64,000 nt of DNA, from positions 1,054,001 through 1,118,000 of the forward strand of contig CP073749.1 of NCBI GenBank assembly GCA_024398055.1, in the 5' to 3' direction. A program made the translations under genes and the position numbers. Position 1 is the stretch's first letter. Each line of letters starts with the position of its first letter. The DNA comes from a bacterium SCSIO 12741. Lineage in GTDB: Bacteria > Bacteroidota > Bacteroidia > Flavobacteriales_G > Salibacteraceae. Of the stretch, positions 1,476 to 28,867 are shown in pieces. The notes beneath the pieces were generated by a model. The model was given only the letters and a program-made list of their open reading frames with translations. It was not told the origin of the DNA and searched no databases.

Positions 1476-2144
1476 CTATTGGATAAGGAACACGTAGTTC
1501 TTTTCCAACCATACCATTCGCTCCCGTTCCAACTGAAAACTCAGTCCTTCCTTCACCGCTTTGTCTCGAATGATATCTATGGCACAGTCCTCTGACAAAA
1601 CCATATATATCCGAGTACTCTTGCGATCCATCAATACCAACTCATGAAACAAGCGATCAAAGTACTCAAATTCCTCCCCACAATACCAGGCCCGTTCCGC
1701 CATTTTGGAAGGGTTTCTGGGGTAGTAAGGTGGATTAATAAAAATGAAATCAAACTGAGGATCCGGAATATGGTCAAACAGGTCGGATACCAGCGCTCGT
1801 ACCTCCAGTCCGTTTTGAATCGCATTGATTTTCAGGTTTTCAATAGCAACTGGGTTGATGTCGGTAGACGTCACCGTAGCTCCCCGCTGGGCAGCGACTA
1901 AGGAAATGATTCCCGACCCTGCTCCGAGTTCCAGCACTTTCTTTCCCTTTAGCGGCAATCGCAGCATGTACTTGAGCAAAACCCTGGTGCTAAAAAATAA
2001 TCCAGGATGAAAGACACCGGGAGCCACAGTCAAATTAATGTCTCTCCAGGACCACATTCGCGGTTTTGAAGACGACTTTTCCTCCATCCGCTTGAGATGG
2101 GGGTCAAACAAGCGTTTCGATATTTTCCGAACGAGCGTTCGCAT
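1476..2144 (-). CDS. Class I SAM-dependent methyltransferase (NPPYY type)
   Basis: A 222-residue Rossmann-fold methyltransferase. Motif I (LELGAGSG, about 71-78) binds S-adenosylmethionine, TDIN at about 94-97 is the acidic ribose-binding turn, and NPPYY at about 137-141 is the catalytic motif of the family that includes PrmC/HemK and N6-adenine methyltransferases, which usually act on planar nitrogens. The substrate cannot be read from the sequence. It is the last gene of the radical SAM operon, three bases after the previous stop codon, so it may methylate the operon's product; a protein or RNA target is the alternative. It lacks the N-terminal helical domain of true PrmC. Confidence 0.8.
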   Translation of the reverse strand: MRTLVRKISKRLFDPHLKRMEEKSSSKPRMWSWRDINLTVAPGVFHPGLFFSTRVLLKYMLRLPLKGKKVLELGAGSGIISLVAAQRGATVTSTDINPVAIENLKINAIQNGLEVRALVSDLFDHIPDPQFDFIFINPPYYPRNPSKMAERAWYCGEEFEYFDRLFHELVLMDRKSTRIYMVLSEDCAIDIIRDKAVKEGLSFQLERERMVWLEKNYVFLIQ

Positions 2145-2147
2145 GAT

Positions 2148-3659
2148 TTATTCGCTGTAGAAACCTTCGATTTCAGGTTGTCTATACTTCCAGATTTTGT
2201 GAAGAGCCTTGATCTCGTATGGGTAGCCATATACCCCTGATCGATACCTCCAGGAAGCCAGTGTTCGCATAAATCCTTTTTTCACACCCTTAATCCTAAA
2301 ATCTGATTGAGTGGGATAATAGCCATTCAAAACCGTTTCAAAATTCTGGACCCGGTCAATAACTTTAGGAGTAAGCCAAGGAGTGAGTGGATTCTTTCTC
2401 AAATCAAAATTCTCCCACGACGGATTTAACCAATCCTCCAGATTTTCCGGAAAGTTGAATCCCGCTTCCGTAATTTGCTTGTACAAATCGGATCCTTCGG
2501 TAGGTACTGGGCTATAGAGGTAGATTATGATTTCAGTATCCGGATTTACCTCCTTCACCTGCTTAATGAAGTCGATATCTGCTTCCACTTGACGCATCAC
2601 TGTATCTTCATCCGGCCCTGGCATTCCAAGAACAAAAGAATACTCAGGAACGATATCAAATTTCTTCATTCGACCAGCGAAACTCAAAATCTGCTCTGCA
2701 CTTTGAGTTCCTCCTTTATCCATTTGGGCAAGCACCTCATCATTTCCACTTTCTGCCCCAAGAAAAATCATTCGGCATCCAGCTTCTCGCATCAAAGCCA
2801 GGTTTTCATCGCTATAGCGATCTATGGTATCAATTCGTCCTTCACCCCACCACTCGATTCCATCATTTAAAATGAGCTTAGAAAACTCGGCCGTTCTTTT
2901 CTGGGAAGTAAAAAAATTGTTGTCGTGAAATTCAATTCCATTAATGCCAATCTTCTCTTTGAGGTAGGTAACATTACGGTAGATAGCCTCGGCAGATTGC
3001 CCCTTCCAACGAGCGTTGTAGATGGGTACAACTGCACAAAAGGAACAGGTAAACGGACAGCCAAAACTGGTGTGCAAAGCAAAAGTTTTACTCCCCATAA
3101 AGGTCTTACCCAAGTAATTCTCCAAAGGATAAAAGGAGTTCATCTTTTCATAGGGCAAGGGAGGTAGCTTATCCATATCGGGCAGCACTTCCTTTCTGGT
3201 CTTTACCACCTTACCCTCTTCCAGGTAAATCAGGTTTTGGATATCACCTACAGGCTTGTCATTATCGATGGCATCCAACAAGGCTGGAAATGCCGAGTCT
3301 CCAGGTCCATTGATCACATAATCTACCGCCCCGGAACGGAGCACTACATCGCATTGGTTGGAGGCAAAATAGCCTCCCCAGATGTTTACGATATTGGGGT
3401 ATTCCTTTCTTATTTTCTGGGTAAAAGGAATGGCCTCTTTTAACTGAGGACCAGGCATAACGGTAGACCCAAAAAATCCAAACTTTCCCGAATCCAAATG
3501 TGATTTGATAACACTCCATGGATCCGATTCCAGGTTTCCGTCTACGAAAGCATATTCGTAATTCCCGTCAATCGAGGCTGCTACCTGAAGGATAGAATTG
3601 GGCACCCGGTATTTGTGGCGGGCGCTTCGCGGATTAAACAGTAGGACAGCTTTTTTCAT
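2148..3659 (-). CDS. B12-binding-like radical SAM protein
   Basis: A 503-residue two-domain enzyme. Residues about 1-135 resemble the cobalamin-binding Rossmann domain of class B-type radical SAM proteins, though the base-binding DxHxxG motif is absent. The core has the [4Fe-4S] motif C201-x3-C205-x2-C208 and later strands such as GAESGN, typical of the Elp3/MiaB-like radical SAM barrel. Such proteins make methylated or rearranged products by radical chemistry; the substrate is unknown. Its ATG overlaps the preceding stop codon by one base (TGATG). The long C-terminal tail (about 400-503) is rich in aromatic and basic residues and may contact the membrane or substrate (inference). Confidence 0.85.
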   Translation of the reverse strand: MKKAVLLFNPRSARHKYRVPNSILQVAASIDGNYEYAFVDGNLESDPWSVIKSHLDSGKFGFFGSTVMPGPQLKEAIPFTQKIRKEYPNIVNIWGGYFASNQCDVVLRSGAVDYVINGPGDSAFPALLDAIDNDKPVGDIQNLIYLEEGKVVKTRKEVLPDMDKLPPLPYEKMNSFYPLENYLGKTFMGSKTFALHTSFGCPFTCSFCAVVPIYNARWKGQSAEAIYRNVTYLKEKIGINGIEFHDNNFFTSQKRTAEFSKLILNDGIEWWGEGRIDTIDRYSDENLALMREAGCRMIFLGAESGNDEVLAQMDKGGTQSAEQILSFAGRMKKFDIVPEYSFVLGMPGPDEDTVMRQVEADIDFIKQVKEVNPDTEIIIYLYSPVPTEGSDLYKQITEAGFNFPENLEDWLNPSWENFDLRKNPLTPWLTPKVIDRVQNFETVLNGYYPTQSDFRIKGVKKGFMRTLASWRYRSGVYGYPYEIKALHKIWKYRQPEIEGFYSE

Positions 3660-4738
3660 CAGGTAGCACTACAACATCTTGAACATGCGGGCATAAATCC
3701 ACCTTCTTTCATAATTGAGGTGCGAAAATCGGCCGCTGTTTTGGAATTCCATATTTGAGGAAAGTCCTGTTCATACAGGTTCCCCAGGGTTAGGTTAAAG
3801 CAACGCCCATGTGCGGGAATTGCCGAGCCATCGGACTTAAACATGATGCTTGAAAAGATGGCAGTACAATATTTACCCAAAATTCGTTCGGGCTTGAGGT
3901 AATAATCCTGTAAATAATCAGGGTCCTCTATTTCGGGAGAAAAACTAATCCGGAAGGGATAGTCGCGCTTTCGCATTTCCCGAATTTCATTCATTAATTC
4001 GTTAAGGTCCATTTTGGAAAAATCAACCTCATCCAGATTGGATGCTGTGGCCGGATAGAGATGCCCCCATTTGGCGTTGTGAATTTCCGCCATTTTTTCA
4101 TCAGTAAACTGCGTATGCATAAAAGACACTTCCCGGATGGGCATTCCCTTTAAGGAATCCAACAATTCCATTAGGTTTCCGGTATTCCATTCAGTAATGG
4201 CGCAGATGACATCAATTTTGGGTGGGTTCTTTTCGCCAGCCAGCACTTCAAGTCCTTCCAAAGCCTTTTGAAAAGACCTCTTGTTACCACGAATTTCGTT
4301 GTGCACATCCTGAGGACCATCCAGCGAAACATACAATTCATTGAGACCACTTTCGCACAGCATTTTGGCTTTTTGCCTCAGCACGAGGGCATTGGTAGTT
4401 ATGGTGGTAAACAATCCTTTTTGATCAGCCAGTTTTAGGGATTCTTCCAAATGTGGATAGACCAGCGGTTCGGTGAATGCATAAGCCAACTTGCTTTTCG
4501 GAGAATACCTGGCTGTTTGATCTATTATTTTGCTAATCAGCTCAAGCGGCATGTTCAAGGGGTGAGTTCCTACCAGGTTTTGGGCAAAAACGGTATCGGT
4601 ATTCCCATTTCCAACATCACACATTTTGCAATGTAGGTTGCACACATTATTCACTCCCAGAACCACCCATTCCGGACCAACGAGAACTTTTCCCGGGTAA
4701 ACACGTGCATTAATATTTCTGACTTTTTCCCTAAGCAT
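3659..4738 (-). CDS. Radical SAM protein with SPASM-like C-terminus
   Basis: A 359-residue radical SAM enzyme without a B12 domain. The cluster motif C33-x3-C37-x2-C40 lies near the N-terminus, as in SPASM/Twitch proteins. The C-terminal part has further cysteines (GKYC, GRCFNL with GNLYEQ following, and C352, C355, C356), a layout matching a SPASM-type domain that binds one or two auxiliary Fe-S clusters. Known relatives modify peptides, sugars or cofactors; the substrate here is unknown. It overlaps the flippase gene upstream by eight bases and touches the next radical SAM gene, so co-translation is likely. It is the only enzyme of this subclass among the six radical SAM proteins of the operon. 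Confidence 0.85.
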   Translation of the reverse strand: MLREKVRNINARVYPGKVLVGPEWVVLGVNNVCNLHCKMCDVGNGNTDTVFAQNLVGTHPLNMPLELISKIIDQTARYSPKSKLAYAFTEPLVYPHLEESLKLADQKGLFTTITTNALVLRQKAKMLCESGLNELYVSLDGPQDVHNEIRGNKRSFQKALEGLEVLAGEKNPPKIDVICAITEWNTGNLMELLDSLKGMPIREVSFMHTQFTDEKMAEIHNAKWGHLYPATASNLDEVDFSKMDLNELMNEIREMRKRDYPFRISFSPEIEDPDYLQDYYLKPERILGKYCTAIFSSIMFKSDGSAIPAHGRCFNLTLGNLYEQDFPQIWNSKTAADFRTSIMKEGGFMPACSRCCSAT

Positions 4739-5927
4739 GATGACGCACTGTAAGTCGGTATTTTCGTTTAACCATTGCAGCTAACGAAATCCGACAAATT
4801 AATCCTCCAAGCAAGGCCCCGGCTATCCCATAATCTGGAACCACCCAATAACAAAACAAGGCATTGATTGCAGCGGCCGCTAAGGTAAACTTAACCAAGC
4901 TTCCTGCCTCATTTTTCTTCATGAGCCCCATACTTTCGATCAAGTAAAAGTACAAGGGGGCGAGGTACAAATAACACAAGCCAAACTCCCAAAGGGTTAG
5001 CTCAAAATCATAGAAATAATAAAGAACTCCACTAATGGCTAACAGGGCTGCTAAATTCACCACCATCCCCAATAGAATATATTGACGTCTTAAAGCAATT
5101 ATTCCACTTTCGTCCATTCGGTAGATGTTCTTTTGAAAAGGTGACAACACCAATCCGGCAAAGGTTTGCACTACAACCAAAAAACCGATCAAAACCTGGT
5201 ATTTCGCAATTTCAATTTCGGGCAATAACCAGGTAACCACATACAAATCTGACTTGCTCTGAAGCAAACCGGCCAAAGCCAGCATAAAAAAAGGAAAACT
5301 CAGAACCAGGTAGGATTGAATGGAAGTCCTGGTTGTGGTTTTGAACGCTTTGGGTAATACGGAAGAAAATCCTATGAGTAGCAATGCGCTACGAATCCAG
5401 GTTTGCCAAGCTACGCACCAAATAAAGTCAGACACGGTAAGCGTATCCCGAAAAAACCAAATTCCTCCAATGAGTATCACCATTCCTATGCCTTCGGTAA
5501 CAAGCGAATAGAGGTACTTCCGATGGTATTGAATGAGGGCTTCGAAAGAATGGTAAACAAAACGAGCCACCATCCAGAACAACAGTGGCTTGATCAAATC
5601 CCAACCCACGGGAAGAAAAAAGGCAATGGCAGCTACCGGCAATAAGAATAGGGAACGAGCAACCAAAGATTTGCCCCATTCCTGATTAATGGTTGCGGGT
5701 GAGAGTGAAAATTCCCGCATCAGGTAATGACGGCTCCCCCAATTGAGCCCAATAAAAAGAAGCTCCATTCCCACGAGATAGGGCACAATACTTCCCCAAA
5801 GCTCAGGAGAGACCAACCTTACCACCAGTAAAGAGGCCAGGATTCCTGCAACCGGTTTAGAAAAGGTATTGAGCGTTTCGAGGCTCACCAGCCTCGATCG
5901 ATTCCATATTTTGCGTCGTTTAGACAT
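4731..5927 (-). CDS. Wzx-like polysaccharide/lipid-linked glycan flippase
   Basis: A 398-residue polytopic membrane protein with about ten to twelve hydrophobic helices, beginning at about residue 20 after a basic N-terminus. The fold and length match the MOP superfamily (polysaccharide transport protein, Wzx/RfbX type), which flips lipid-linked glycans from the cytoplasmic to the periplasmic side of the inner membrane. It lies in the radical SAM operon between a lipoprotein and a SPASM-type enzyme, with one- and eight-base overlaps. With two glycosyltransferases in the same operon this suggests that the product is a lipid-linked, glycosylated molecule that crosses the membrane (inference). 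Family-level sequence conservation is low, so the substrate cannot be named. Confidence 0.75.
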   Translation of the reverse strand: MSKRRKIWNRSRLVSLETLNTFSKPVAGILASLLVVRLVSPELWGSIVPYLVGMELLFIGLNWGSRHYLMREFSLSPATINQEWGKSLVARSLFLLPVAAIAFFLPVGWDLIKPLLFWMVARFVYHSFEALIQYHRKYLYSLVTEGIGMVILIGGIWFFRDTLTVSDFIWCVAWQTWIRSALLLIGFSSVLPKAFKTTTRTSIQSYLVLSFPFFMLALAGLLQSKSDLYVVTWLLPEIEIAKYQVLIGFLVVVQTFAGLVLSPFQKNIYRMDESGIIALRRQYILLGMVVNLAALLAISGVLYYFYDFELTLWEFGLCYLYLAPLYFYLIESMGLMKKNEAGSLVKFTLAAAAINALFCYWVVPDYGIAGALLGGLICRISLAAMVKRKYRLTVRHHA

Positions 5928-7108
5928 TAGGGTTCATCCACCGGCCAATTGGGCTCATAAGCCGAAAATTCACGCGATGATTCAGGTACAGGTGTTGCTG
6001 GAAAGGGCGCTAAAGGATCAACGTCTTTGCGGCTATACACATCTCCCAACTGAGGGAATTCTCCATGTTTATGACTGGTCAATCCGGCCAATTTGTTTTT
6101 TACTTCCTGCTCAGTCATCCCCCATTCCTGAGCCAAGCGGTAGGCACTGGGCTCTTCAAAACTGAGGTATAGCAATTCCATAAAGGTGTGATCCTGCTTA
6201 TTGGAATAATCAATAGCCGTTTCCAGCCCGGCACGGTAACGATCCAAAGCAGTTTGAAAGGAATCTACTTCCTCCCGAAAGTCATCCGGTGATAAGTAAT
6301 CTCGGTAATGAGTAACTGCCGAAAATGGCTCCATCACATTAAGCTCATGGCACCAGAGGCACTTGGCAGGCTTTCCCGCTGCACTGAACACCGGATCAGC
6401 TGCGGTAATCAAGATTCCCGAGACACCGTAAATACCAAAACGTAGTTGACCATTTTTCATCACATCCATCACCTCGAATTCAAGGATAGAATTTGGATTG
6501 GCCGTGTCCGAAATTTCTTTGGAAACAAAAGCCATGGCATGGCTATTCTCCATCACCGACGTCATTTGAATGAGTCTGGATTTATGAGACACCGCAGACT
6601 CTACAATTCCAGCTTCTTTCTCCCGAAAGTTATAATTGGCCTGAAAAGCTTTCTGCCGATTAGGCATCTCAACGAGTTTATAGTAATGCCAGCTACTGTT
6701 CAAGGTAAGCATCAAAAATCGTCCGGCGTCCATTCCACCTCTGTGCTGGTATTCTCGCCGGCCCTGGATGTAACGGATAAAACTTTCAAGTACTTCTTGT
6801 GCTTGTTCGCTAAAACCTGCCTTTTCGTAATGAAAGGTCATGCGATTTCCTTGCCATTCAAATATTTCGTGAGCAGTAGATGCTGGAAGTTCGGCCCCCA
6901 AAAAGGAAAGTCCCCATAAAAACCCGGTTTCAAAATCTTCTCTTCGTTCCTCCGGAGAGTAGGCATCCCAATACAGGTAAAAGGGCTTCATGGTTTCTTC
7001 AACCGGTTCCTCCTGAGAAATCGGCACCTCATGTACCTCCTTCCGGCATCCATCCAAAAGAATGAATAAACCCAACAAAAGGGCTATGACAAGTACTCCT
7101 CTTTTCAT
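5927..7108 (-). CDS. Lipoprotein with a CxxCH haem-binding motif
   Basis: A 393-residue predicted lipoprotein that I do not recognise as a named family. The N-terminus has a signal peptide ending in a lipobox (LLDGC, lipidated Cys21). A single CLWCH motif at 250-254 matches the covalent haem c attachment site, and the region after it (about 255-350) is helical. The C-terminus is proline-rich. If haem is attached, this is a periplasmic or outer-membrane-anchored cytochrome-like protein that could deliver electrons or sense redox state; the two cysteines could instead form a disulfide. It is the only exported protein without membrane helices in the radical SAM operon and overlaps both neighbours by one base. 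Confidence 0.7.
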   Translation of the reverse strand: MKRGVLVIALLLGLFILLDGCRKEVHEVPISQEEPVEETMKPFYLYWDAYSPEERREDFETGFLWGLSFLGAELPASTAHEIFEWQGNRMTFHYEKAGFSEQAQEVLESFIRYIQGRREYQHRGGMDAGRFLMLTLNSSWHYYKLVEMPNRQKAFQANYNFREKEAGIVESAVSHKSRLIQMTSVMENSHAMAFVSKEISDTANPNSILEFEVMDVMKNGQLRFGIYGVSGILITAADPVFSAAGKPAKCLWCHELNVMEPFSAVTHYRDYLSPDDFREEVDSFQTALDRYRAGLETAIDYSNKQDHTFMELLYLSFEEPSAYRLAQEWGMTEQEVKNKLAGLTSHKHGEFPQLGDVYSRKDVDPLAPFPATPVPESSREFSAYEPNWPVDEP

Positions 7109-8535
7109 TACTCCTTGGCCAACACGTGTTGGTAGTTTTTTAAGGCAAATTTCAAGGTATCCCAGAAATTTCGTTTCTCACTTCGGATGTACACGTAGAA
7201 GTATATCAATCCAAACCAAGCCTTAAACAAAAAGTTGGGTCGGAGGTAAATCAATCGTTTAATCAGCGGATAGGTCCAGGGCCATAAAACGGCGGTTTGA
7301 AAAAACTTCTGCAGGTTCTGCATTTCCCTAATATTCGGCACTTCCAACTTAGATTCCAGGAAGAAAGACTTATCCAAAGTCTCTACATCAAAGGTTGGGC
7401 TGAGGTAGCCCTTGGCGTAGGCATAATCGGTCAATTCTGTTCCGGGGAAGGGAGAAAACAAGGAACACCAAGGATAGTCGGCTTTGATCCGAATATTGAG
7501 CTCCAGAGTGGAGAAGGCGTCTTCCAGAGTTTCGTCCGGGAGTCCTAAAATATTGTAGGTTCTGAATTTAATTCCAGCTTCATGTAACCAGCCAGCAGCA
7601 GTTACAATCTGCTCATCGGTAAGCTGTTTTTTTAGAAGTTGATTTCGGAGATCCTCATTCCCCGACTCCACACCGAAGAATACGGATCTACATCCCGCTT
7701 CAGCCAGTTTAAAGGCGTATTTTTTATCAGCTGCTACCAGGTCTGCTCGAACGAGGCAAATGAATTCGAGTCCAATTTCTCGTTTGTATATCTCAAGGAA
7801 CTCGTACAACCAACTGCGGCTCATTCCAAAAACGTCATCGGCAAAGTAGATCACTTCTACCTCGGTTTCATTCTTAAGTCGACGGCACTCTTCGATCACC
7901 TCATCCATTTCACGAATGCGGACGTACTTTCCCTTGCCTTTGTAGAGATCACGCATAGCGTCTTCAAAACAAAAGGTACAGTGCCAGGGACAACCTCGTG
8001 AGGTGATCACATTACGGACCCGTCTATCCTGGCGATTATCCAAATCGTTGTACAATTCCCGATCGGGGTAAGGCAAGTCATCCAGTCGCTTGCTTAAGTT
8101 TCGCAAGGGATTGTGAACCGCCTTTCCATCCTGGAGAAAAGAAAGATTGGGCACATCCTGAAACGAATCTCCCTGATCCAGACGATTCATCAACTCCAAA
8201 AGCGATTCTTCTCCTTCTCCTCTGATCAGGTAATCCACTCCTTCTTCTTGAATAAACTCAGAGAAAAAAGTAGGATGCGAACCACCAAAGATGTTAGGAA
8301 TACCCGTTTCTGCTTTAATCGTTCGAGCCATGTTACGTGCCCAGTGATGGCTTCCACTCATAATCGAAAAGCCCACCATATCCGGTTTAAAGGATTCGAT
8401 TTTTGCCTTAAAATCATCCCACTTCTGGCCCAATATCAAATCACATTGATGCCCATGGTCTTTCAGGATAGCCGATAAGTACATCGGCCCCATGAATTCA
8501 TAATCTATGTTCTGAAGAAATAGGAGTTTAGCCAT
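7108..8535 (-). CDS. B12-binding-like radical SAM protein
   Basis: A 475-residue protein with an N-terminal cobalamin-binding-like domain (about 1-130, including the family motif GGSHPT at about 84-89 but no DxHxxG) and a radical SAM core with C182-x3-C186-x2-C189. GVESGNE further on is the usual SAM-contacting strand. The C-terminal region (about 400-475) is hydrophobic and aromatic, suggesting membrane contact. The family includes lipid and natural-product methylases and P-methyl or C-methyl transferases; no substrate can be assigned. It overlaps the GT87-like gene upstream by eight bases and the lipoprotein gene downstream by one. Confidence 0.85.
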   Translation of the reverse strand: MAKLLFLQNIDYEFMGPMYLSAILKDHGHQCDLILGQKWDDFKAKIESFKPDMVGFSIMSGSHHWARNMARTIKAETGIPNIFGGSHPTFFSEFIQEEGVDYLIRGEGEESLLELMNRLDQGDSFQDVPNLSFLQDGKAVHNPLRNLSKRLDDLPYPDRELYNDLDNRQDRRVRNVITSRGCPWHCTFCFEDAMRDLYKGKGKYVRIREMDEVIEECRRLKNETEVEVIYFADDVFGMSRSWLYEFLEIYKREIGLEFICLVRADLVAADKKYAFKLAEAGCRSVFFGVESGNEDLRNQLLKKQLTDEQIVTAAGWLHEAGIKFRTYNILGLPDETLEDAFSTLELNIRIKADYPWCSLFSPFPGTELTDYAYAKGYLSPTFDVETLDKSFFLESKLEVPNIREMQNLQKFFQTAVLWPWTYPLIKRLIYLRPNFLFKAWFGLIYFYVYIRSEKRNFWDTLKFALKNYQHVLAKE

Positions 8536-9805
8536 AAATCAAGTTCTCCACCCTTCTCTTACGGACGGCAATTCCTAACCACCAGTTGGTAAAGAGATAC
8601 AATCCGCATAGTCCCCAGAGACGTGGGTAAGAAAGAATCAAATCTATGACATCCGAGCCGGTTTGCCAGTCAACAGTAAACGAAGAAGTGTTGGCGCTGA
8701 CGAAAAGAAGAGCGAAAAGAACCAAAACATCACCCAATCGTAAATGGTCTTTTCCCACTCGTAGGAATAAAGTTACCGGAAAGAACAGCAGCAAAAAATG
8801 GTAGGTAGCCGTTGCTGGTAAAACCAAAAGGGTCCCCAAGCTAACAACGATCAAAGTAATATCACGATAAGTCCGTTTGTTCCGCCCTTTACTGGAATAT
8901 AGGGTCAAGCTTCCTATCAATAATACCAAGGCCAAAAAACTGTATTTCAAAATACGAGGCATTGCTGGTAAGTCTGCCAAAGGGTTGGGATTGTATTCGG
9001 CGTCGTAAATGAAAAGATGAGCGGCAAAGGAATCAATGGACTGAAAAGCCGGAACAAACCTTCCCTGCCCGGGAATCTCACCGGACAAGTGCCCCAGCAA
9101 AACATTCACATAGGTCTGCCAGGTGTCCATTCCAAAAAACAATATTTGAAAACCAAACAGCACCAGCAGTGTGATACTTCCCATGATCCAGATTCGCTTG
9201 TTACCCAAAATTCCAAAAGCCATTAGGAGTGTAATGGGTACGTATTTGAAAATTGTGAGTATCGCTAATAGATTTCCAGCCGATTTTGATCGATTTCGAA
9301 TCGCCGCCTGATAGGCTGCCAGCATTCCACAGACCAGTACCAGATAAAATTGCCCCATACGGAAGTTACTCATAAGAGGTAGCGCCAACCAAAAGGCTAT
9401 AAAAAAGACCCATCCGAAGGACAAGTTGGTAATCATCCGTAGTTGCGCAATGAGCACAAAAAGCAAGAATACATTGAATAAGAGCCAGATTCTTTTTGCC
9501 ACCAGGGGCTCAAAAAAGCTGAGTGGAATAGCCAATACGGATGTAATGGGAGGGAATGGCGAAAACCGAGCCGGGGCATCAATTCCCCTTTGGTGGGCCT
9601 GTTCTTCAAACCAATCATTGTCGTAAAACTTGGCTACAGGCTCTCCTTCGAGCAACAATCGGGAAGCGGTATAATAATTGGGGAAGTCTGAATCCAGATT
9701 TTTCCAGCCAGGCACCAGTCCTTTCCACACCACCAAAGTGACGCAGAATAAGGTCAATACAGCCATGACTAACTTGGCTATCCTTGTTTTTTCGATGGAC
9801 TCCAT
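8528..9805 (-). CDS. GT87-like membrane glycosyltransferase (DUF2029)
   Basis: A 425-residue polytopic membrane protein with about ten helices. After the first helix the sequence NLDSDFPNYY (acidic residues 38 and 40) matches the catalytic acidic loop of GT-C fold enzymes, and the overall pattern fits the GT87/DUF2029 family, whose studied members move mannose from polyprenyl phosphate to lipid-linked glycans on the outer face of the inner membrane. Here it would act after the flippase encoded two genes downstream (inference). It starts 129 bases after the stop codon of the preceding radical SAM gene, the largest gap in the operon, so an internal promoter is possible, though none is clear (near-miss TATTTTG at about 9837-9843). 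Confidence 0.7.
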   Translation of the reverse strand: MESIEKTRIAKLVMAVLTLFCVTLVVWKGLVPGWKNLDSDFPNYYTASRLLLEGEPVAKFYDNDWFEEQAHQRGIDAPARFSPFPPITSVLAIPLSFFEPLVAKRIWLLFNVFLLFVLIAQLRMITNLSFGWVFFIAFWLALPLMSNFRMGQFYLVLVCGMLAAYQAAIRNRSKSAGNLLAILTIFKYVPITLLMAFGILGNKRIWIMGSITLLVLFGFQILFFGMDTWQTYVNVLLGHLSGEIPGQGRFVPAFQSIDSFAAHLFIYDAEYNPNPLADLPAMPRILKYSFLALVLLIGSLTLYSSKGRNKRTYRDITLIVVSLGTLLVLPATATYHFLLLFFPVTLFLRVGKDHLRLGDVLVLFALLFVSANTSSFTVDWQTGSDVIDLILSYPRLWGLCGLYLFTNWWLGIAVRKRRVENLIYG

Positions 9806-9934: not shown

Positions 9935-11329
9935 CTACTGTCCCGTTATTAATCCACGAATAATAAACCAAGCCTCACGAGTGTGAGTCAGGAACTCCCT
10001 TTTATTGCGAAGCGCCCATACCCTTTTCCATAGATAGGAGGGTCTAAAATAAAAACCAAGGTAGGCCTGTCTTCGAAGCGCTTTCAATTTTTTCTTGCTC
10101 ACCTTTCCCGTGCCCATCGCAATCTCGCTCCCGGATTGATCCATCACTCTAAGGTCTTGCTCAATCAAACCAGCATCAAGAGCTTCATCACGAAAAGAGG
10201 TATTGGACCTTGGAACGGCAATATTGAAGGAAGCATAATCAGCGTCGATGGTTCTTGCAAAACGAGCTGTATTCCTTATGGAAGCCTCATCTTGTCCGGG
10301 CACTCCCAAGAGGAATGTGCCCAATCGTTTAATGCCAATCTTTTTGGTGAGCGCAAAGGTTTCTTCAATTTGCTGGATGGTGTAATTTTTTCGGTATTGC
10401 TTGAGGTATTTGTCCTCAGCCCATTCCACCCCAAACATGATGAGGTTACAACCCGCTTGCTTCATCTTCTCCAACTTCTCCTGATCGAGCACATCCACTC
10501 TGGAAAAACACATCCAGTGCACATCCCAATCGGATTGAATCAAGTAGTCGAGAACTGGATCGGTAACTGCCTTGGAGAGGTAAAAAGTTTGGTCTGAAAA
10601 ATAGAGGTATCGAATTCCCAATCGTTGTAACTCCTTGAGTTCGGCAATGATGCTTTCAGCCGTTCTTGAAACGAATGGCAAGGTGGACATAATGCAAAAA
10701 GTACAAGGAAAAGGACAGGCATAATTCGTTAGAACGGTAGCCATGGGGTGCGCATCGGCAAAGGGCATCCGATAGAGAGCATTGCGGAAAAGATCATGCC
10801 TTGGCACCGGCAATTCCACCATTTTCGTTTTGTCTTCTGGCGTATGTACTACCAAGCCGTCCTTCCGGTAAACCAGACCTCGAATAGCATCCCACTTTTT
10901 CTCCAAAAGTCGACGAGCACCGTCATTAAAGAAATTGGTAATAATTCCGTCCAACCACTCGTATTCTCTAAAGCGATCTTCGTGATCTTCGAGAAAAGCG
11001 TCACCCGATGCAACCAAAAGGGACTTAGGCAAACAGGCTTTGAGAGCCTTCAAAAAGTAATGGTCCTCTTCCAAAGAAACTGAACCACAAAGGGAAATAA
11101 TCAAATCTGGACTAAACTCATCACAAATCCCTAAAGCCAACTCCACTGGCAGGCGCTCTGCGATAGCATCTACCACTCTTACCTCGTATTGATCCTTCGG
11201 GAAATGAGCAGATTGAATCATCAAATCAACCGGCTGAGGAAGGTAATAGGCCTTAGAGACCTTGGAACAATAGTAATCCCGGATATAGATCTTTTCCCCG
11301 GGAGGGTTGAGCAGCAAAACTTTTTTCAT
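9935..11329 (-). CDS. B12-binding-like radical SAM protein
   Basis: A 464-residue protein. Residues about 1-140 form a divergent cobalamin-binding-like domain without DxHxxG. The radical SAM core has C205-x3-C209-x2-C212 (in NYACPFPCTFC) and the later strands LIMFGVEW and GTFLLGVPG. The C-terminal tail is basic and aromatic. The enzyme probably generates a 5'-deoxyadenosyl radical and acts on the operon's unknown product. Its ATG overlaps the GT9 gene's stop codon (ATGA). Of the five B12-type proteins it has the most divergent N-terminus: it has YYLPQPVDLM where two others have PYPPLG. Confidence 0.83.
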   Translation of the reverse strand: MKKVLLLNPPGEKIYIRDYYCSKVSKAYYLPQPVDLMIQSAHFPKDQYEVRVVDAIAERLPVELALGICDEFSPDLIISLCGSVSLEEDHYFLKALKACLPKSLLVASGDAFLEDHEDRFREYEWLDGIITNFFNDGARRLLEKKWDAIRGLVYRKDGLVVHTPEDKTKMVELPVPRHDLFRNALYRMPFADAHPMATVLTNYACPFPCTFCIMSTLPFVSRTAESIIAELKELQRLGIRYLYFSDQTFYLSKAVTDPVLDYLIQSDWDVHWMCFSRVDVLDQEKLEKMKQAGCNLIMFGVEWAEDKYLKQYRKNYTIQQIEETFALTKKIGIKRLGTFLLGVPGQDEASIRNTARFARTIDADYASFNIAVPRSNTSFRDEALDAGLIEQDLRVMDQSGSEIAMGTGKVSKKKLKALRRQAYLGFYFRPSYLWKRVWALRNKREFLTHTREAWFIIRGLITGQ

Positions 11330-12480
11330 GCCGACACCTCCTTTTGAACTTCATGGAATTGAGGTAAACGAACCCTTCGACTCACACCAGGCTTCCATAG
11401 TTTTTCTGCTTCCAGCATTATTAACTCAGGGCTTATCTCCTTCAAGCAATCTACCCGCCCCTGGCAAGATTCAGCAATGCGAGACCGGGGGTGTTCAAAA
11501 CAAGGCGAACACGATTTTTCCATCCAAATATTTTTCAATCGATCCGAATCCGGGTAACCTACGTATTCTGGATGTGTGGGTCCCCATAGCACAACAGTAG
11601 GCGTTCCCAGGTAATGAGCCAAGTGCATTGGGCCAGAGTCATTGGTAATAAGTAAGGAACCTGCGGCCAATTCTTGCGCAAATTGATTGAGGGTCCAACT
11701 GCCTGCTTTGTTTTCAACCTTTGAGCCTTTCAATTGATCTACCACACTTTGTACAAATTCCTTTTCCCCATGGCTTCCTGTAAAAAGGATACGAGAATCC
11801 GGGTACTTTTTCGACCAAAGCCGGACCAATTCCAGATATTGATTTTCCGGATATTTTCGTTCGGGGAGATAATCACTGGCGTTCAAATTCACCAACAAAT
11901 TGGGTTGAGACTCCACCTCAACTTCATACGTCAATTCACCAGCAACAAAACCTAAATCTTCCAATGCCTCCCTCAGTGCCAGGGTTACCGGCTTCTGATA
12001 GAGTGAAATCTCCCGACTTGAAGAGTTTGATGTCTCACGGGCGTCTACCCGAAAAGAAATCTCCCGAGCTCCATTTCGACTAAAAAGTCTAAGCAGACCA
12101 ACTCCATTGGATGCCCTTTCCAGATCCACGATCGCTCGTGGTTTCAGGCTCTTTATTTGACTTACGGCTTTCAAAAAAGCGCCGGGCAATTGCCAGGCAT
12201 GGCTTGCCGAAAAATCGATGGTATTCCATCCGAGCCAATCTGCAGCCGGCTTTAATCCGGGAAGGGTAACCAAATAGAACTCTTCTTGTTTCAAATCATA
12301 TTGATCCACCACTTGTTGTAAACGGATCAAACTCCCCATCCCATAAAGCTTGATAAAGATCACGGGGCCCTCATTGCGAATTTTTCGTCCACCCGACAGA
12401 TGCATTAAACCCCTTAGAATTTTAAATGGCAAAGACAGGAGCCCATCAATTAACAAGGTATTGCGGGTGGACATGCTCAT
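11326..12480 (-). CDS. Glycosyltransferase family 9 (heptosyltransferase-like)
   Basis: A 384-residue GT-B fold protein. The C-terminal half has the GT9 signature (ITNDSGPMHLAHYLGTPTV, then WGPTHPEY) followed by a cysteine-bearing segment (CSPCFEHP and a later DCLKEI) common in heptosyltransferase-like proteins of Bacteroidota. Family members transfer ADP-heptose or other nucleotide sugars to lipid A-core-like acceptors in the cytoplasm. The donor here is unknown. It overlaps radical SAM genes on both sides by four bases (ATGA each time), so it belongs to the same operon and is probably made in step with them. It would place a sugar on the product before it is flipped (inference). Confidence 0.82.
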   Translation of the reverse strand: MSMSTRNTLLIDGLLSLPFKILRGLMHLSGGRKIRNEGPVIFIKLYGMGSLIRLQQVVDQYDLKQEEFYLVTLPGLKPAADWLGWNTIDFSASHAWQLPGAFLKAVSQIKSLKPRAIVDLERASNGVGLLRLFSRNGAREISFRVDARETSNSSSREISLYQKPVTLALREALEDLGFVAGELTYEVEVESQPNLLVNLNASDYLPERKYPENQYLELVRLWSKKYPDSRILFTGSHGEKEFVQSVVDQLKGSKVENKAGSWTLNQFAQELAAGSLLITNDSGPMHLAHYLGTPTVVLWGPTHPEYVGYPDSDRLKNIWMEKSCSPCFEHPRSRIAESCQGRVDCLKEISPELIMLEAEKLWKPGVSRRVRLPQFHEVQKEVSA

Positions 12481-13871
12481 GGTCGATCGCCCTTTTTATG
12501 CAACCTCATACCGGTTCTGGCAAACAAGGATTTTCCTTTCAATTTCCAGAAGGCGACGCTGGGCCCATTTTTTACCCATTCCTGATGGGAGCTCACTTCA
12601 TTGACCACCCACCTTACGGCAAAATGGTAGTATTTATCTGAATAAGGTCGTTCAAAGTCCAATTCCCGGTCGGTACTGGTGGTCCATTCCGGAACCTTGG
12701 TCAGCTTACTCTCAATCTCGTTATAGAGTGCGGTCCCTTTAATAGGGTAACTTTTGGTGATGGTAAACTGGCTGGGATTCGCCGCTTTCAAGTATTTCAC
12801 GGTTTGAACAATGTCTTCTTCCTCCTCCCCGGGATAGCCGAGCATGATGAAGGTTCCGGTTTCCATTCCCTTCTGACGGGTTTTCACCAGCATATCTTGA
12901 ACGGTGGATACGTTTACCCGACGATCCATCGCATCGATCACTTTCTGAGATCCGCTTTCCGCTCCAATCCATACGCGGAAACATCCACTCTCTTTGAGCC
13001 AATGTAACACATCTTCTGACATCCGCTCGGCACGGGTAATACACTCGTACTGAAAAACCAACTTTCTCTTTTTGACTTCCTGGTAGAAAGCCTCCAACCA
13101 CTTGTGACTTACAGTAAAAACATCGTCTACAAACCAAATCGAATCGGGTTGATAGCGCTCTAAGAGAAACTCAATCTCATCGGCCACCTGCACCGGATCT
13201 CGTCGACGATAGCTCTGGCCATAAACTGCGGTGCTACACCATTTGCAGGTATAAGGACATCCACGTTGGGTACTTACGTTAATCGCACTGTAACCATGTC
13301 TGCCCTTCCAGGCCTTGAGGTAACGATCCAGGTCAATACCCTCCCTATTGGGCATGGGCAATTCATTGAGGTTTTTGATTTTGACCCGAGCAGGGGTTTG
13401 AACGGTCTCCCCATTCTGCTTAAAAGCCAAACCCGGAATAGTGGATAAATCAGCTCCGGATTCCAGGCCTTGAACCAACTCGGTTACACTTTGCTCGCCT
13501 TCACCAATAACCAGAAAATCGGCACCGGCAGCGAGGTAGTTGTCTACATTGTAAGTGATATCAGGGCCGCCTAAAACGATTTTAGGTCTTTTACCCTCAG
13601 GTAGTTTTTTGATCTCCTGAACCAAAGCCAGCACCTGAACTTTGGTCATCAGGTTGGTGTAAATGGCCATTACATCGGGTTGGTATGCCGTCCAATCGGC
13701 CCACCAGGATTCACGATCGGAGAAGGTGGAATCAAATAGTTTGTTGTCAATTTTTTGTTGGTGTAGATAGGCGGAGATATACAGGATTCCCAATGGTGGG
13801 TAGGGCTTCATGATTTTTTGCTCCAACGGATCATTACCAATAAAGTATCCATGTGTAAGCCATACCTTCAT
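12477..13871 (-). CDS. B12-binding-like radical SAM protein
   Basis: The start is set at 13871, giving an ATGA overlap with the upstream methyltransferase and the usual N-terminus MKVWLTHGYF; an ATG five codons earlier is possible. The 464-residue protein has a cobalamin-binding-like domain (about 1-135; PYPPLGILY near residue 23, GGPDITYN at about 101-108, no DxHxxG) and the radical SAM motif C205-x3-C209-x2-C212. GAESGSQKVIDAMD is a conserved core strand. It is a close paralogue of the protein at 14668-16113, sharing the PYPPLG start, the CxxxCxWC cluster and the GAESGSQK strand, which points to tandem duplication with the methyltransferase gene between the copies. Confidence 0.87.
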   Translation of the reverse strand: MKVWLTHGYFIGNDPLEQKIMKPYPPLGILYISAYLHQQKIDNKLFDSTFSDRESWWADWTAYQPDVMAIYTNLMTKVQVLALVQEIKKLPEGKRPKIVLGGPDITYNVDNYLAAGADFLVIGEGEQSVTELVQGLESGADLSTIPGLAFKQNGETVQTPARVKIKNLNELPMPNREGIDLDRYLKAWKGRHGYSAINVSTQRGCPYTCKWCSTAVYGQSYRRRDPVQVADEIEFLLERYQPDSIWFVDDVFTVSHKWLEAFYQEVKKRKLVFQYECITRAERMSEDVLHWLKESGCFRVWIGAESGSQKVIDAMDRRVNVSTVQDMLVKTRQKGMETGTFIMLGYPGEEEEDIVQTVKYLKAANPSQFTITKSYPIKGTALYNEIESKLTKVPEWTTSTDRELDFERPYSDKYYHFAVRWVVNEVSSHQEWVKNGPSVAFWKLKGKSLFARTGMRLHKKGDRP

Positions 13872-14659
13872 CGCTTCACCTCCCATTCCATTAAAAAATG
13901 ATCGGCGTAGTTTGACCAGTTATCGAGCGTTCCCAAGCTTTTTTCCAGTGCGTTTAAACCATTAAGAATTCCCTTTCTTTTTTCGAAAAAGGGATTCAAG
14001 TAAGATGGTGGCAAAAATAACCCGATTGGTTTGATTCTATTTACCTGCCAGTGAGAAGACCACTGTTGCTCCAATTGGTTCGGATTGTAATACCAGGTGG
14101 TCACAAACTTTCCGGAAACAGGAACTTCTACGGCTTCGCCTGTAGCTCTTCGTTTTGCTTCTTTTCCCCGGCCCTTAAACCTGAGGTAATACTGTTCCCA
14201 CAAACAATGAGTGGATAGATATACGGCCAATACTTTACCTGTTGGCTTAACGATATGAGAAAGCTCCTCTCCCAATGAAATCATCCGATTCTCATCCAAA
14301 CAGTTGAGTCCGGCAAAATTGGAAAAGACCAGGTCAAAATCCTTTTCGTTTAGAGCATTCATTTGGGTCAAATCCCAGGTCTGAAAATGAAGGTTCTTTT
14401 CCACACCTTGATTTTCGGCCTTCTTTTTCGCCAATTCAAGCATGGATTCGGACGCATCGGTAGCCCATACCTCATGACCTAAAGATGCCAGGTAACAAGC
14501 ATCCTCTCCGGTACCACAATTGAGTTCGAGAATCTTCATGGGTTGACCATCCAAACTGGATTGCAGAAAATGCCAGACCCGATCACGCTGCATTCTACCA
14601 ACTGCGGTATGCGTAAATTCCCGATCGTAATCGTATGCGGCTTGATCAAATGAGGCCAT
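13868..14659 (-). CDS. Class I SAM-dependent methyltransferase
   Basis: A 263-residue methyltransferase of the small-molecule (Methyltransf_11/25) type. Motif I is ILELNCGTGED at about 43-53, with the acidic ribose-binding turn in ATDASES at about 66-72. The central part (FSNFAGLNCL) carries the usual post-motif strands. These enzymes methylate O, N or C atoms of metabolites such as quinones or sugars; the acceptor is unknown. It lies between the two most similar radical SAM genes of the operon, eight bases after one and overlapping the other by four, so it probably acts in the same pathway. Confidence 0.82.
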   Translation of the reverse strand: MASFDQAAYDYDREFTHTAVGRMQRDRVWHFLQSSLDGQPMKILELNCGTGEDACYLASLGHEVWATDASESMLELAKKKAENQGVEKNLHFQTWDLTQMNALNEKDFDLVFSNFAGLNCLDENRMISLGEELSHIVKPTGKVLAVYLSTHCLWEQYYLRFKGRGKEAKRRATGEAVEVPVSGKFVTTWYYNPNQLEQQWSSHWQVNRIKPIGLFLPPSYLNPFFEKRKGILNGLNALEKSLGTLDNWSNYADHFLMEWEVKR

Positions 14660-14667
14660 GCCCGATG

Positions 14668-16113
14668 CTAATACTGATTAAGCTGATGTTTGTCCCAAGC
14701 GGCAGCCGGGATGTAATAAGGCAAAGCCATGATCGGACGTATTGCGAACTTTGGCTTCTTACCCGATTGAGCGATTCCTTTGAGTTGATTCAAACCTTGT
14801 TCGCGACGAAGTACCTTGTGAACGTAGCGCTGCAGTTTTCGGTAAAACTCCTTGGGGTAGGTATTGGAAAACATCAGATCCAAATCATCAGAATCGGTCC
14901 AATTGGCCTTTTGGCTCAGCTCCTCTTTGACGCGGTCGTAAAAAGGTGTTCCCGGTAAAGGGTAGGAAACAGAAACTCCAATATTATCGGGTACCAATTC
15001 CTTCACCATGTCAATGGTCATTCGAATATCTTGGCGGGTTTCTCCCGGATATCCAAACTGCAAAAAGAAAGCAACGCGCACTCCCTTTTCATGCAACAGC
15101 TTGGTCGCTTCACCAATTTGTTCCACCTGAGTCCCTTTGTCCATGGCATCCAGAATTTTTTGAGAACCCGACTCGGCCCCTACCCAAACCTCATGCAATC
15201 CGGATTCGGCCAATGCATCGATAGTATCTTCTTTTAGTAACAGATCTACCCGCGATTGAATGGTGTATTGAATGCTTAATCCTTTTTCCTTGAGTAGTCG
15301 ATTAAACTCCTGAACCCAACCTGGCTTGAGACCGAAAATATCGTCGCTCATCCAATAATGATCGGGTTGAAAATGTTCGGTTACCCAAGCAATTTCTTCC
15401 ACTACTCGCTCCGGAGAGCGAGAATGGTAGCGGTTGCCATAAATGGGCTTTGCACACCAGTTACATTTAAATGGGCAGCCCCGTGTGGTCGCCAGGTTTA
15501 AGGAGAAGTAACCGTTACCGGCTTTCCAAATGTCTTTGTAGGGTTGAATATCGATAAGATCCCAAGCGGGTTGCGGCAGGTCATCCAGGTCTTTTAGAAC
15601 AGGTCGACGTCTCGTGGTTCGAATCTCATGATCATCTCTATAGGCCAATCCCAAAACCTGATTCACAGGCTTACCCTCATCCAGGTATTCGACCAATTCC
15701 TTGAGCGTAAGTTCGGCCTCTCCTAACAATACATAATGAGCGCCAGCCTCCAAATACTTTTCGTAATGATCGGTGGAATCTGAACTGGAAACTATTACAG
15801 TACAGCCTTTATCCCGGCCTGTTTTGATCATTTCAAATGCAGCTTCCCGCATGTTGGTCAAGCACATTTTCGTTAGGTAATTAAACCCATCGTCATACAG
15901 CGCCAGGTAGTCTGGTTTGAAGGAATCTATTTGCCCCACAATTTCGCCAGGGCCTTCTACCAGATTGGTATCAAACAGGTCTACCTCGTGACCCAATTCA
16001 CGCATATAAGATGCCGCAAAAAGGGTTCCCAACGGCGGGTAAGGTTGTTGCTTTTTCCATTGCTTCGGGTCCAGCTGGTAGTAATACGAATGAGAAAATA
16101 GAATCCGACTCAT
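14668..16113 (-). CDS. B12-binding-like radical SAM protein
   Basis: A 481-residue protein with an N-terminal cobalamin-binding-like domain (PYPPLGTLF at about 24-32, no DxHxxG) and the radical SAM cluster motif C213-x3-C217-x2-C220. The strand GAESGSQKILDAMD follows. It is paralogous to the protein at 12477-13871. The region where most relatives read GGxHP is changed to VSSSDSTDHYE (about 108-118), so the two copies may differ in the cobalamin site. Its ATG overlaps the stop codon of the nucleotidyltransferase-like gene (ATGA). It is probably the first enzyme of the operon made after that protein. Confidence 0.87.
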   Translation of the reverse strand: MSRILFSHSYYYQLDPKQWKKQQPYPPLGTLFAASYMRELGHEVDLFDTNLVEGPGEIVGQIDSFKPDYLALYDDGFNYLTKMCLTNMREAAFEMIKTGRDKGCTVIVSSSDSTDHYEKYLEAGAHYVLLGEAELTLKELVEYLDEGKPVNQVLGLAYRDDHEIRTTRRRPVLKDLDDLPQPAWDLIDIQPYKDIWKAGNGYFSLNLATTRGCPFKCNWCAKPIYGNRYHSRSPERVVEEIAWVTEHFQPDHYWMSDDIFGLKPGWVQEFNRLLKEKGLSIQYTIQSRVDLLLKEDTIDALAESGLHEVWVGAESGSQKILDAMDKGTQVEQIGEATKLLHEKGVRVAFFLQFGYPGETRQDIRMTIDMVKELVPDNIGVSVSYPLPGTPFYDRVKEELSQKANWTDSDDLDLMFSNTYPKEFYRKLQRYVHKVLRREQGLNQLKGIAQSGKKPKFAIRPIMALPYYIPAAAWDKHQLNQY

Positions 16114-17081
16114 GACTCCTTCAACGAAACTTGATTTATTTTTTCGAATTCAACCACCTTTTCTGCAAAGGCATCCATCACTCTCTTTTGGAAATTACGC
16201 GGATGGTGTTTAGACACATAGGATCTACTTTTCATCGCTACGTCAAAATCGCCACTATTAAAATGGCCGAATTTCTGCTTCCATCTGTTCATGGTCAAAC
16301 GCATGAAGAAACCATCCATCCACTCTCCTAAAAATCCACTTAATACCCACTTCATTCCAGCAGACCACCAGGGCTTTTGGCTCCCAACATTGTGCTCAAC
16401 CTGACGAAGGGGAAAATTGGGATAAAGTTCACGAGCCCATTGGTTGGCCTCCATAAATTCAGGGTAACAACCCGAATCACACATGGGCACCAAGGTCAAT
16501 AACTCAGTAGCAGTGAACAGGTTTTTTTCTTCAATCTGCAGGTTCCTTGTGTCAATAAAATAATTGAGGCAAAAGAACTTACGGGAATTCAAAAGAAAGA
16601 TCTTCTTGTACATGATCAACAGGGTGCGAGCAATCCAAAGTCGCTTCGGTTCGGTGATCACGAAATAATCGATATCCCCATCTTCGGGCATAAAGTTTTT
16701 AGAAATGGATCCGGATAGATAAACAGCCTTTACAAAAGGGAAATTCATGATAAACTGCGAGCGTTCCGAAGCAATCTTCATGTACTCTCTGGCTCGATCA
16801 TTTCCCTGGCGCCGCCGCTCTGCTAATGCAGGATTGTTGTGGACTGAGAAAAACTCCCCTAAAGGATAAATCAAACCTTGCTCAACCAACCTATCCAGGG
16901 TAGCTTCAAACTGGCTTTCCACCTGGGCTGGTTCCAATTTACAATTGTCTTTGAGCTCCTCTCTGGTCAAAGGGTAGTCAAAAATATCGTAGTACAACAA
17001 GGACCTCACGATATCCGACATTATTCCGGTATCTGTCAATTCTTCTATTCGCAACTTTCTCTGTTCTGATGCGCTCTGCAA
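16110..17081 (-). CDS. Winged-helix and nucleotidyltransferase-domain protein
   Basis: The longest reading starts at a TTG (17081, 323 residues); an in-frame ATG at 17021 would give 303. The N-terminal part (about 25-80) looks like a winged helix. The middle has the Pol beta-type nucleotidyltransferase signature: G124-S125 followed by D136-x-D138 (SGSISKN then DGDIDYF), with FID near 173 as the possible third carboxylate. The C-terminal half is aromatic and unassigned. Such proteins add a nucleotide to a small molecule or protein. The gene heads the radical SAM operon and may activate the substrate or regulate the cluster (inference). A -7-like element lies just upstream. Confidence 0.72.
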   Translation of the reverse strand: MQSASEQRKLRIEELTDTGIMSDIVRSLLYYDIFDYPLTREELKDNCKLEPAQVESQFEATLDRLVEQGLIYPLGEFFSVHNNPALAERRRQGNDRAREYMKIASERSQFIMNFPFVKAVYLSGSISKNFMPEDGDIDYFVITEPKRLWIARTLLIMYKKIFLLNSRKFFCLNYFIDTRNLQIEEKNLFTATELLTLVPMCDSGCYPEFMEANQWARELYPNFPLRQVEHNVGSQKPWWSAGMKWVLSGFLGEWMDGFFMRLTMNRWKQKFGHFNSGDFDVAMKSRSYVSKHHPRNFQKRVMDAFAEKVVEFEKINQVSLKES

Positions 17082-28762: not shown

Positions 28763-28867
28763 AATCGTTTGACTTAGCGTCAGTATTTTAATAACACACT
28801 GGACGTTTTGAAGAGAGGCTAAATAAAGGAGTTACAAGAACCCAGATCTTAGCTTATAGAATATTTC

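Follow-up and report, generated by a model that had tools for sequence, protein, structure and literature searches.

Radical S-adenosylmethionine (SAM) enzymes such as AprD4, OxsB, CysS and TokK count deoxygenation, ring contraction and methylation among their reactions; to our knowledge they are natural-product enzymes with no tie to glycan loci. HpnJ acts on ribosylhopane, and PglK belongs to the N-glycosylation system of Campylobacter. As described in a review, the LFG locus of Bacteroides has conserved end genes that flank species-variable glycosyltransferases and a Wzx flippase (PMC12871550). Here, we analysed a stretch of 64,000 nucleotides from the bacterium SCSIO 12741 (contig CP073749.1, positions 1,054,001 to 1,118,000; hereafter the window), whose minus strand carries a thirteen-gene operon with six radical SAM proteins (R1-R6). 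Gene content and conserved order support the view that this operon is the local version of a recurrent, conserved and apparently undescribed biosynthetic locus. Its product is probably, though far from certainly, a lipid-linked glycan or glycolipid exported to the cell surface, in which radical SAM enzymes would build a constant unit and glycosyltransferases a variable part.

The thirteen open reading frames (ORFs) occupy window positions 1476-17081 (G000:C1:1055476-1071081 in contig coordinates) and were named, in the order of transcription, NT, R6, MT2, R5, GT9, R4, GT87, R3, LH, Wzx, R2, R1 and MT1 (Table 1). Besides R1-R6 they encode a nucleotidyltransferase-like protein (NT), two methyltransferases (MT1, MT2), two glycosyltransferases (GT9, GT87), a lipoprotein candidate (LH) and a Wzx-like flippase candidate. 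Adjacent genes are separated by -19 to +8 bp, with the sole exception of 129 bp from R4 to GT87, which confirms the tight one-strand operon described in the initial annotation of the window. That annotation had also counted six radical SAM enzymes, and all six pass PF04055 with 53.9-82.0 bits (cut-off 29.5) and contain one CxxxCxxC motif each. The genome (one contig, 5.1 Mb, 95.9% complete) has 22 PF04055 matches at E ≤0.001, 21 of them above the cut-off; with an assumed total of 4300 genes, six in a group of 13 would arise by chance with P 1.4e-11. Five of the six had been called B12-type, which was borne out at the PF02310 cut-off (32.1 bits) for R3 (70.4) and R5 (43.7). R1 (26.5) and R6 (26.3) fell below it, and R4, like R2, had no Pfam match to this domain. 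R4 nevertheless aligned to the R5 profile over columns 35-389 (hhalign, 99.7%), covering most of the N-terminal B12-binding domain. A DxHxxG motif was found in none of the six proteins. The single SPASM-type protein that had been proposed is R2, as assigned by Pfam, and the two SAM methyltransferases, GT9 and GT87 all exceeded their Pfam cut-offs.

Within the order, NT was present in 21 of 42 genomes, the own genome included. One NT locus each was taken from 19 of the 20 other genomes (G404 and the second loci of G419 and G422 were left out), and several of these loci were cut by contig ends. R6 was found in 16 of the 19, accompanied by MT2, R5, LH, Wzx, R2, R1 and MT1 in varying completeness and mostly in the order of the window. 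The closest locus, L054, shares nine genes with the window operon in unchanged order (R2, Wzx, LH, GT87, R4, R5, MT2, R6 and NT) together with a neighbouring Gate-family gene, and is without R3, GT9, MT1 and a close R1. In another family of the class, L068 holds a partial NT and R6-MT2-R5-LH with GT2, GT87-like and Wzx-like genes. The genome of L068, G289, has two NT genes, in L068 (C49) and in L210 (C54); one stands with R6-MT2-R5-LH on a short contig and the other with R2-R1-MT1 on a different contig, an arrangement that may be a split locus or an assembly effect. None of the loci examined holds all thirteen genes, so that R2, R3, R4 and GT9 look like accessories.

With the R6 alignment as query, a collection of named genomes gave at least 593 matching stretches, of which at least 559 encode a relative (tblastn E ≤1e-3, paralogues possible). 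We kept the best 80 of these at least 559 stretches, with R6 58-66% identical to the query, and the counts are therefore biased towards window-like R6. They include Flavobacteriaceae (Kordia, Winogradskyella, Aquimarina, Flavobacterium, Polaribacter), Niastella, Aureispira and Chryseolinea, as well as Ignavibacteria-type metagenome-assembled genomes (MAGs) and one titled Thermoanaerobaculia. One contig with a Bacteroidota-type locus (L095) was deposited as a Bifidobacterium breve MAG and is probably a mislabelled bin. NT was present in 74 of the 80 loci, MT2 in 76, R5 in 59, LH in 22, R2 in 5, and R3 and R4 in 1 each; R1 (>50% identity) was found in 28 within the counted stretch and in 29 when whole loci were considered, and many loci end before the R1 position. 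NT lies directly upstream of R6 in 71 loci, MT2 directly downstream of R6 in 74, and MT2 and R5 are adjacent in 54. The recurrent plan is a head of NT-R6-MT2, often with R5, followed by exchangeable glycosyltransferases and a flippase and then by R1-MT1. R6 is followed by R1 in the same direction in 25 of the 28 R1 loci, and a glycosyltransferase lies between them in 22 of these 25, as does a flippase candidate (22).

The remaining radical SAM genes and GT9 are rarer. R2 relatives formed an alignment of 10 sequences, 52-65% identical to the R2 of the window; R3 has a single close relative (74%, in L103), and R4 relatives above 45% occur only in L054 and L103 among L049-L148. GT9 relatives with 24-32% identity were found in L070, L103, L120, L126 and L143. 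The neighbourhood comparison suggested by the initial annotation thus recovered a core of conserved order in other Bacteroidota, whose genes stay together rather than being scattered in relatives. Its idea of a conserved undescribed system gains support for this ordered set, which recurs across the phylum, and not for a fixed set of thirteen genes.

Slot counts were made on the 63 of 80 loci that have 9.5 kb or more of sequence counted from the R6 start, with kinship uncorrected. The transporter slot contains the Wzx-like protein in 24 loci, an ABC transporter in 14, both in none and neither in the remaining 25 (Fisher 4.6e-4). None of the 19 Wzx-like members matched a Pfam flippase family, and a PDB sequence search returned no flippase, only two viral proteins at E 0.2. 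Against a joint profile of four Polysacc_synt proteins of the own genome, hhalign gave 96.7% (E 4.6e-10, 325 columns); the single proteins gave 8.4, 59.1, 1.8 and 71.9%, a fifth protein below the cut-off 1.4%, and control membrane families 0.1-0.3%. The flippase named in the initial annotation therefore has no standing in Pfam and is kept as a candidate by its profile match. Two ABC proteins were compared with the PDB and matched PglK over residues 30-546 of 564 (E 8e-45) and 10-551 of 560 (E 8e-42). These patterns support the substitution of two unrelated transporter families, both with flippase relatives, for each other.

Of the same 63 loci, 20 carry LH and 21 carry MTx, a small methyltransferase; the two never occur together. 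When all proteins with GT87 as their best match in the window were counted as GT87, it was found with LH in 18 loci, alone in 2 (L070, L103), while LH was alone in 2 (L091, L111) and neither was present in 41; within one GT87 sequence cluster, LH accompanies GT87 in 17 of 17 cases. A PMT_2-like GT-C family (Pfam PMT_2, 26.0 bits against a cut-off of 26.1) is present in 17 loci and GT87 in 20, again never together. We read this pattern, a single flippase and for the most part a single GT-C enzyme in each locus, as that expected of a lipid-linked glycan pathway.

The distribution in the phylum was examined in 395 evenly drawn genomes from 171 genera, the own genome included. Used as a single-sequence query, LH was detected in only 2 of the 395 (one of them the own genome), and R6 was therefore chosen as the marker (E ≤1e-120). 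R6 was found in 27 of 395 genomes and 22 of 171 genera, and all 17 genomes with R1 were among these 27 (hypergeometric P 3e-23, kinship uncorrected). In ten regions from R6-positive genomes (L200-L209), NT and R6 occur in nine and R1 relatives (44-65%) in eight; L206 is the only one with R5 next to R6, five regions (L200, L204, L205, L206, L208) contain GT87 relatives together with GT9 relatives, the latter again 24-32% identical, and LH is found in none of the ten. R5 and LH are thus common among loci closely related to the window and not universal, and the pair GT87 and GT9 may date from early in the history of the locus.

Mean pairwise identities, calculated from sets with differing members, were 0.69 for R1 (over 27), 0.65 for R5, 0.63 for R6, 0.49 for MT1, 0.44 for NT and 0.41 for MT2 in the core. 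For the exchangeable proteins they were 0.68 for a DPM-like GT2, 0.45 for LH, 0.43 for MTx, 0.40 for the PMT_2-like GT-C enzyme, 0.35 each for GT87-like and GT4 proteins, 0.33 for ABC and 0.29 for Wzx. The conservation of R1, R5 and R6, set against the divergent transporters and GT87-like enzymes, suggests a constant unit within a variable glycan. Mantel correlations with R6 distances were highest for R5 (r 0.91, 59 loci), followed by NT (0.83), MT2 (0.78) and R1 (0.61). The core genes share a history, within which the Mantel test does not separate co-evolution from common descent.

The nucleotidyltransferase-like assignment of NT was not upheld by Pfam (Polbeta, 21.3 bits, under the cut-off), but gained from motif and fold. 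The motif GS..DxD has one match, and G124, S127, K128, D136 and D138 are invariant across 35 sequences. The AlphaFold model (predicted local distance difference test, pLDDT, 92.0) combines a nucleotidyltransferase domain with a winged helix. Its best VIA rows are ANT(4'') with Z 8.5-8.8 (top row, 114 aligned residues, 3.3 Å), and winged-helix rows come next at 8.3. Foldseek returned nothing at E ≤0.001 for this model (best, MNT antitoxin, E 5.5e-3), and the only nucleotidyltransferase in the PDB sequence search was a weak row, 2rff (E 0.48), ranked under a haemoglobin at 0.22. Motif and model thus support NT as a candidate pol-beta-type nucleotidyltransferase. In MT1, NPPY is invariant in 12 of 12 sequences, and none of the best 25 of 42 NCBIfam rows reached its cut-off; in the PrmC family, this motif marks methylation of a planar nitrogen.

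LH contains CLWCH and a hydrophobic N-terminal stretch (residues 3-21) ending in cysteine, and therefore stands as the haem-motif lipoprotein candidate it had been taken for. CxWCHE is invariant in alignments of 8 and of 22 members. At the expected lipid site, cysteine 21 is invariant among the 8 members; it is not listed as such for the 22, whose N-termini may be misaligned or misstarted. LH has no match in Pfam or NCBIfam, and the PDB sequence search gave nothing useful. For its model (pLDDT 85.5), cytochrome c'-beta or P460 fills all of the ten top VIA rows (Z 5.7-3.7); these represent about five proteins, with several mutants of one, and span residues of about 142-286, which contain CxxCH. 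With Foldseek the same model gave nothing at E ≤0.001, and the first 50 rows were unrelated and included neither cytochrome c'-beta nor P460. Comparison with the cytochrome c'-beta/P460 profile was weak (42%, 29 columns), and no protein of the own genome matched PF16694 at E 1e-6. Cytochrome P460 is recognised by a lysine-haem cross-link. No firm P460 assignment was made in view of the Foldseek result, the VIA Z values under 6 and the weak profile test.

Gene content, conserved order, the one-transporter pattern, the linkage of LH to GT87 and the nesting of R1 within R6 are computed results. We infer every reaction in the following scheme, the order of the reactions, the lipid carrier and the final acceptor. 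NT would attach a nucleotide to a precursor, and R6 with MT2, and with R5 where present, would then change the carbon skeleton of the unit by C-methylation, deoxygenation or a ring change. Profile searches of solved structures gave AprD4, OxsB, CysS and TokK as relatives of R5 and R6, and AprD4 (6fd2) for R1 too; since these enzymes carry out deoxygenation, ring contraction and methylation, any of the three is possible for the operon enzymes. The top PDB row for both R5 and R6 was 9ccb, titled only 'radical SAM core domain-containing protein', and, since ELP3 or RimO rows also turned up, the match reflects in part the radical SAM core that all these enzymes have in common. R1 and MT1 would alter the unit further; R1 is placed after R6 because it was found only in R6-bearing genomes, which suggests that it acts on an R6-made product. 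GT9, or GT4 and GT2 in relatives, would lengthen the glycan inside the cell, with R2, R3 and R4 as local tailoring enzymes, and the Wzx-like protein would flip it. Outside the cell, GT87 would add a sugar from a polyprenyl-phosphate donor, the donor type of this family, and LH would act on the same branch. A more specific proposal is tentative, and we hold it with less than even confidence: NT-R6-MT2(-R5) and R1-MT1 may make one constant and hitherto unobserved building block, from a nucleotide-tagged precursor by cobalamin and radical SAM chemistry, which would cap or anchor a whole class of surface glycans in Bacteroidota, with glycan enzymes and flippase swapped around it and, on the GT87 branch, an oxidative step by the haem lipoprotein outside the cell.

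Several observations weigh against a lipid-linked surface glycan as the product. Neither flippase candidate is found in 25 of the 63 loci, and the PDB rows scoring highest for the ABC proteins are P-glycoprotein-type multidrug exporters, matched mostly over the ATPase part, so that a different compound may be exported. GT87 lacks an accompanying LH in L070, in L103 and in deeper phylum loci where LH was not seen; together with the multidrug-exporter rows, these cases slightly lowered the probability we give to a glycan product. L148 runs NT-R6-MT2-MTx-R1-MT1 with no glycosyltransferase or flippase between, and other loci (e.g. L118, L122, L140, L145) have NT-R6-MT2 with R5 and R1 not nearby, from which it follows that the core may not need glycan genes or that these lie elsewhere. 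NT is without R6 in 3 of the 19 loci of the order (L062, L065, L066); in L062 and L065 it lies in what appears, from visual inspection of the first residues of the neighbouring ORFs, to be a polysaccharide locus, and NT may therefore not belong to the radical enzymes exclusively. In L209 (genome G073) the matching protein is nearer R5 (42%) and has no NT beside it, and at least one of the 27 R6-positive genomes may thus not carry a true R6. Conservation shows no clean split between core and sugar genes, as GT2 reaches the level of the core radical SAM proteins and NT and MT2 are no more conserved than LH. The 80 loci, being the best of at least 559 and mutually related, do not give independent counts. 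The thirteen genes include no initiating phosphoglycosyltransferase; a polysaccharide locus with an initiating Bac_transf lies just left of the window and was counted in favour of the lipid-linked glycan. The proposal of a flipped, lipid-linked glycan in the initial annotation gains support from the conserved order and from the transporter families that replace each other.

The radical SAM core could instead make or alter a lipid or lipid anchor that the glycosyltransferases merely decorate, which we regard as unlikely. R4 and R6 score best against HpnJ (TIGR03471), R4 with 159.4 bits over most of its length and R6 with 154.1 bits over positions 112-425 of 472, and R5 does so against the BchE anaerobic cyclase (TIGR02026, 151.1 bits). 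The high conservation of R1 suggests a constant substrate, and L148 has the core without sugar enzymes. All these scores are nevertheless far under the curated cut-offs (577.6 for HpnJ, 481.35 for BchE), as is the best match to a ladderane-type lipid radical SAM protein (TIGR04072; R5, 131.8 against 360), and none of the thirteen proteins matches a fatty-acid or isoprenoid enzyme family in Pfam or NCBIfam. The unreached cut-offs lowered the hopanoid, ladderane, BchE and phosphinate readings, the hopanoid pathway also because squalene-hopene cyclase (PF13249) has no match in the own genome. Another reading, which seems improbable to us, is a cluster for a small-molecule natural product of, for example, aminoglycoside- or phosphinate-like type, with NT tagging a precursor and the flippase-like proteins serving as exporters. 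It would have a parallel in Fom1, which nucleotide-tags the precursor for Fom3, and draws on AprD4 as a structural relative of R1, R5 and R6, on the resemblance of NT to ANT(4''), on the multidrug-exporter scores of the ABC protein and on the P-methyltransferase PhpK (TIGR04479) as the top NCBIfam match of R1 (112.9 bits). However, even the best PhpK score (R5, 140.1) is far from the cut-off of 600, no polyketide synthase, non-ribosomal peptide synthetase or PepM family was found among the thirteen proteins in Pfam or NCBIfam, and exchangeable GT-C enzymes suit lipid-linked glycans better. None of the named pathway models tested thus identified the operon as a known pathway. A ribosomally synthesized and post-translationally modified peptide was considered for the 129-bp gap only, which has or touches seven short ORFs of 24-74 residues with no other sign of a gene, and was rejected.

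We give very little weight to the cluster being part of Bacteroidota protein O-glycosylation. An LFG-like outer-glycan locus has the same architecture of conserved ends, variable glycosyltransferases and wzx, but in the review that describes it, metG starts LFG beside wzx and the main text does not contain the term 'radical SAM' (PMC12871550). Here, the best match to the metG-type synthetase family PF09334 (G000:C1:1174249-1175454) lies about 103 kb from the operon, and this lack of adjacency lowered the LFG reading. Two conserved terminal glycosyltransferases are a further mark of LFG. Our preferred reading remains a surface glycolipid or lipid-linked glycan in which one unit is built by radical SAM enzymes.

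The polysaccharide locus left of the window (G000:C1:1044281-1051007, plus strand) contains Bac_transf, two Wzy_C-type proteins (one below the cut-off), two GT4-type proteins and the terminal part of one Polysacc_synt_3 protein; the own genome has three Bac_transf genes. Between this locus and MT1 lie a minus-strand ORF of 1264 residues with no Pfam match (G000:C1:1051004-1054798, window 1-798) and a plus-strand ORF of 100 residues. On the other side, the gene for the Gate-family membrane protein (window 17121-18422) ends 39 bp upstream of NT; it also adjoins NT in L054 and L055, and may share the operon transcript in this family. Elsewhere in the window, on the minus strand, are an rRNA operon (16S, tRNA-Ile, tRNA-Ala, 23S, 5S; 28655-33952) and a SAM riboswitch (RF00162, 41723-41835) upstream of an ORF of 339 residues (40630-41649).

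Table 1. Genes of the operon in the order of transcription, with window positions
Gene	Assignment	Position	Strand	Basis
NT	winged helix and pol-beta-type nucleotidyltransferase (candidate)	16110..17081	-	motif GS..DxD, residues 124-138; fold
R6	radical SAM, weak B12-binding domain; marker of the system	14668..16113	-	PF04055, 79.6 bits
MT2	class I SAM methyltransferase	13868..14659	-	Pfam Methyltransf_25, 64.6 bits
R5	B12-type radical SAM, paralogue of R6 (33% identity, blastp)	12477..13886	-	Pfam
GT9	glycosyltransferase (heptosyltransferase family), accessory	11326..12480	-	Pfam, 77.2 bits
R4	radical SAM, HpnJ-like by similarity, accessory	9935..11329	-	PF04055, 80.0 bits
GT87	membrane glycosyltransferase	8528..9805	-	Pfam, 67.7 bits
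R3	B12-type radical SAM, accessory	7108..8535	-	Pfam
LH	lipoprotein candidate, one CxWCHE haem-c motif	5927..7108	-	motif
Wzx	Wzx-like flippase candidate	4731..5927	-	hhalign to own-genome Polysacc_synt profile
R2	radical SAM with SPASM domain, optional member	3659..4738	-	Pfam
R1	radical SAM, weak B12-binding domain; most conserved protein of the set	2148..3659	-	Pfam
MT1	PrmC/HemK-like methyltransferase, invariant NPPY	1476..2144	-	Pfam MTS, 61.7 bits

Loci for surface glycans are common, but we could not assign to a described pathway one in which two or three conserved B12-type radical SAM proteins form a core amid interchangeable glycosyltransferases and flippases. No description of the gene set was found in the literature searched, a weak sign of absence as the coverage was mostly without subscription papers. 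If the proposal is right, radical C-H chemistry would join bacterial glycoconjugate assembly, and LH and the Wzx-like family would gain a context. Since R6 occurs in 22 genera of the sample and in named isolates of Kordia, Winogradskyella, Aquimarina, Flavobacterium and Polaribacter, the product should be findable.

Among the closest known systems, cytochromes c'-beta and P460, which have a beta domain with a C-terminal CxxCH, supply the best VIA rows for LH, though at low Z, and LH has large extra parts. R4 and R6 align with HpnJ, whereas their scores stay below its cut-off and the genome has no match to the cyclase. In contrast to LFG, conservation here falls on genes for radical SAM proteins, methyltransferases and NT, and no metG adjoins them. 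Where PglK is concerned, the window operon has a Wzx-like protein instead, and the ABC relatives score higher against multidrug exporters over the ATPase part; the two ABC proteins of related loci that were compared nevertheless match PglK over nearly their full length, and their family never stands beside Wzx in the 63 loci.

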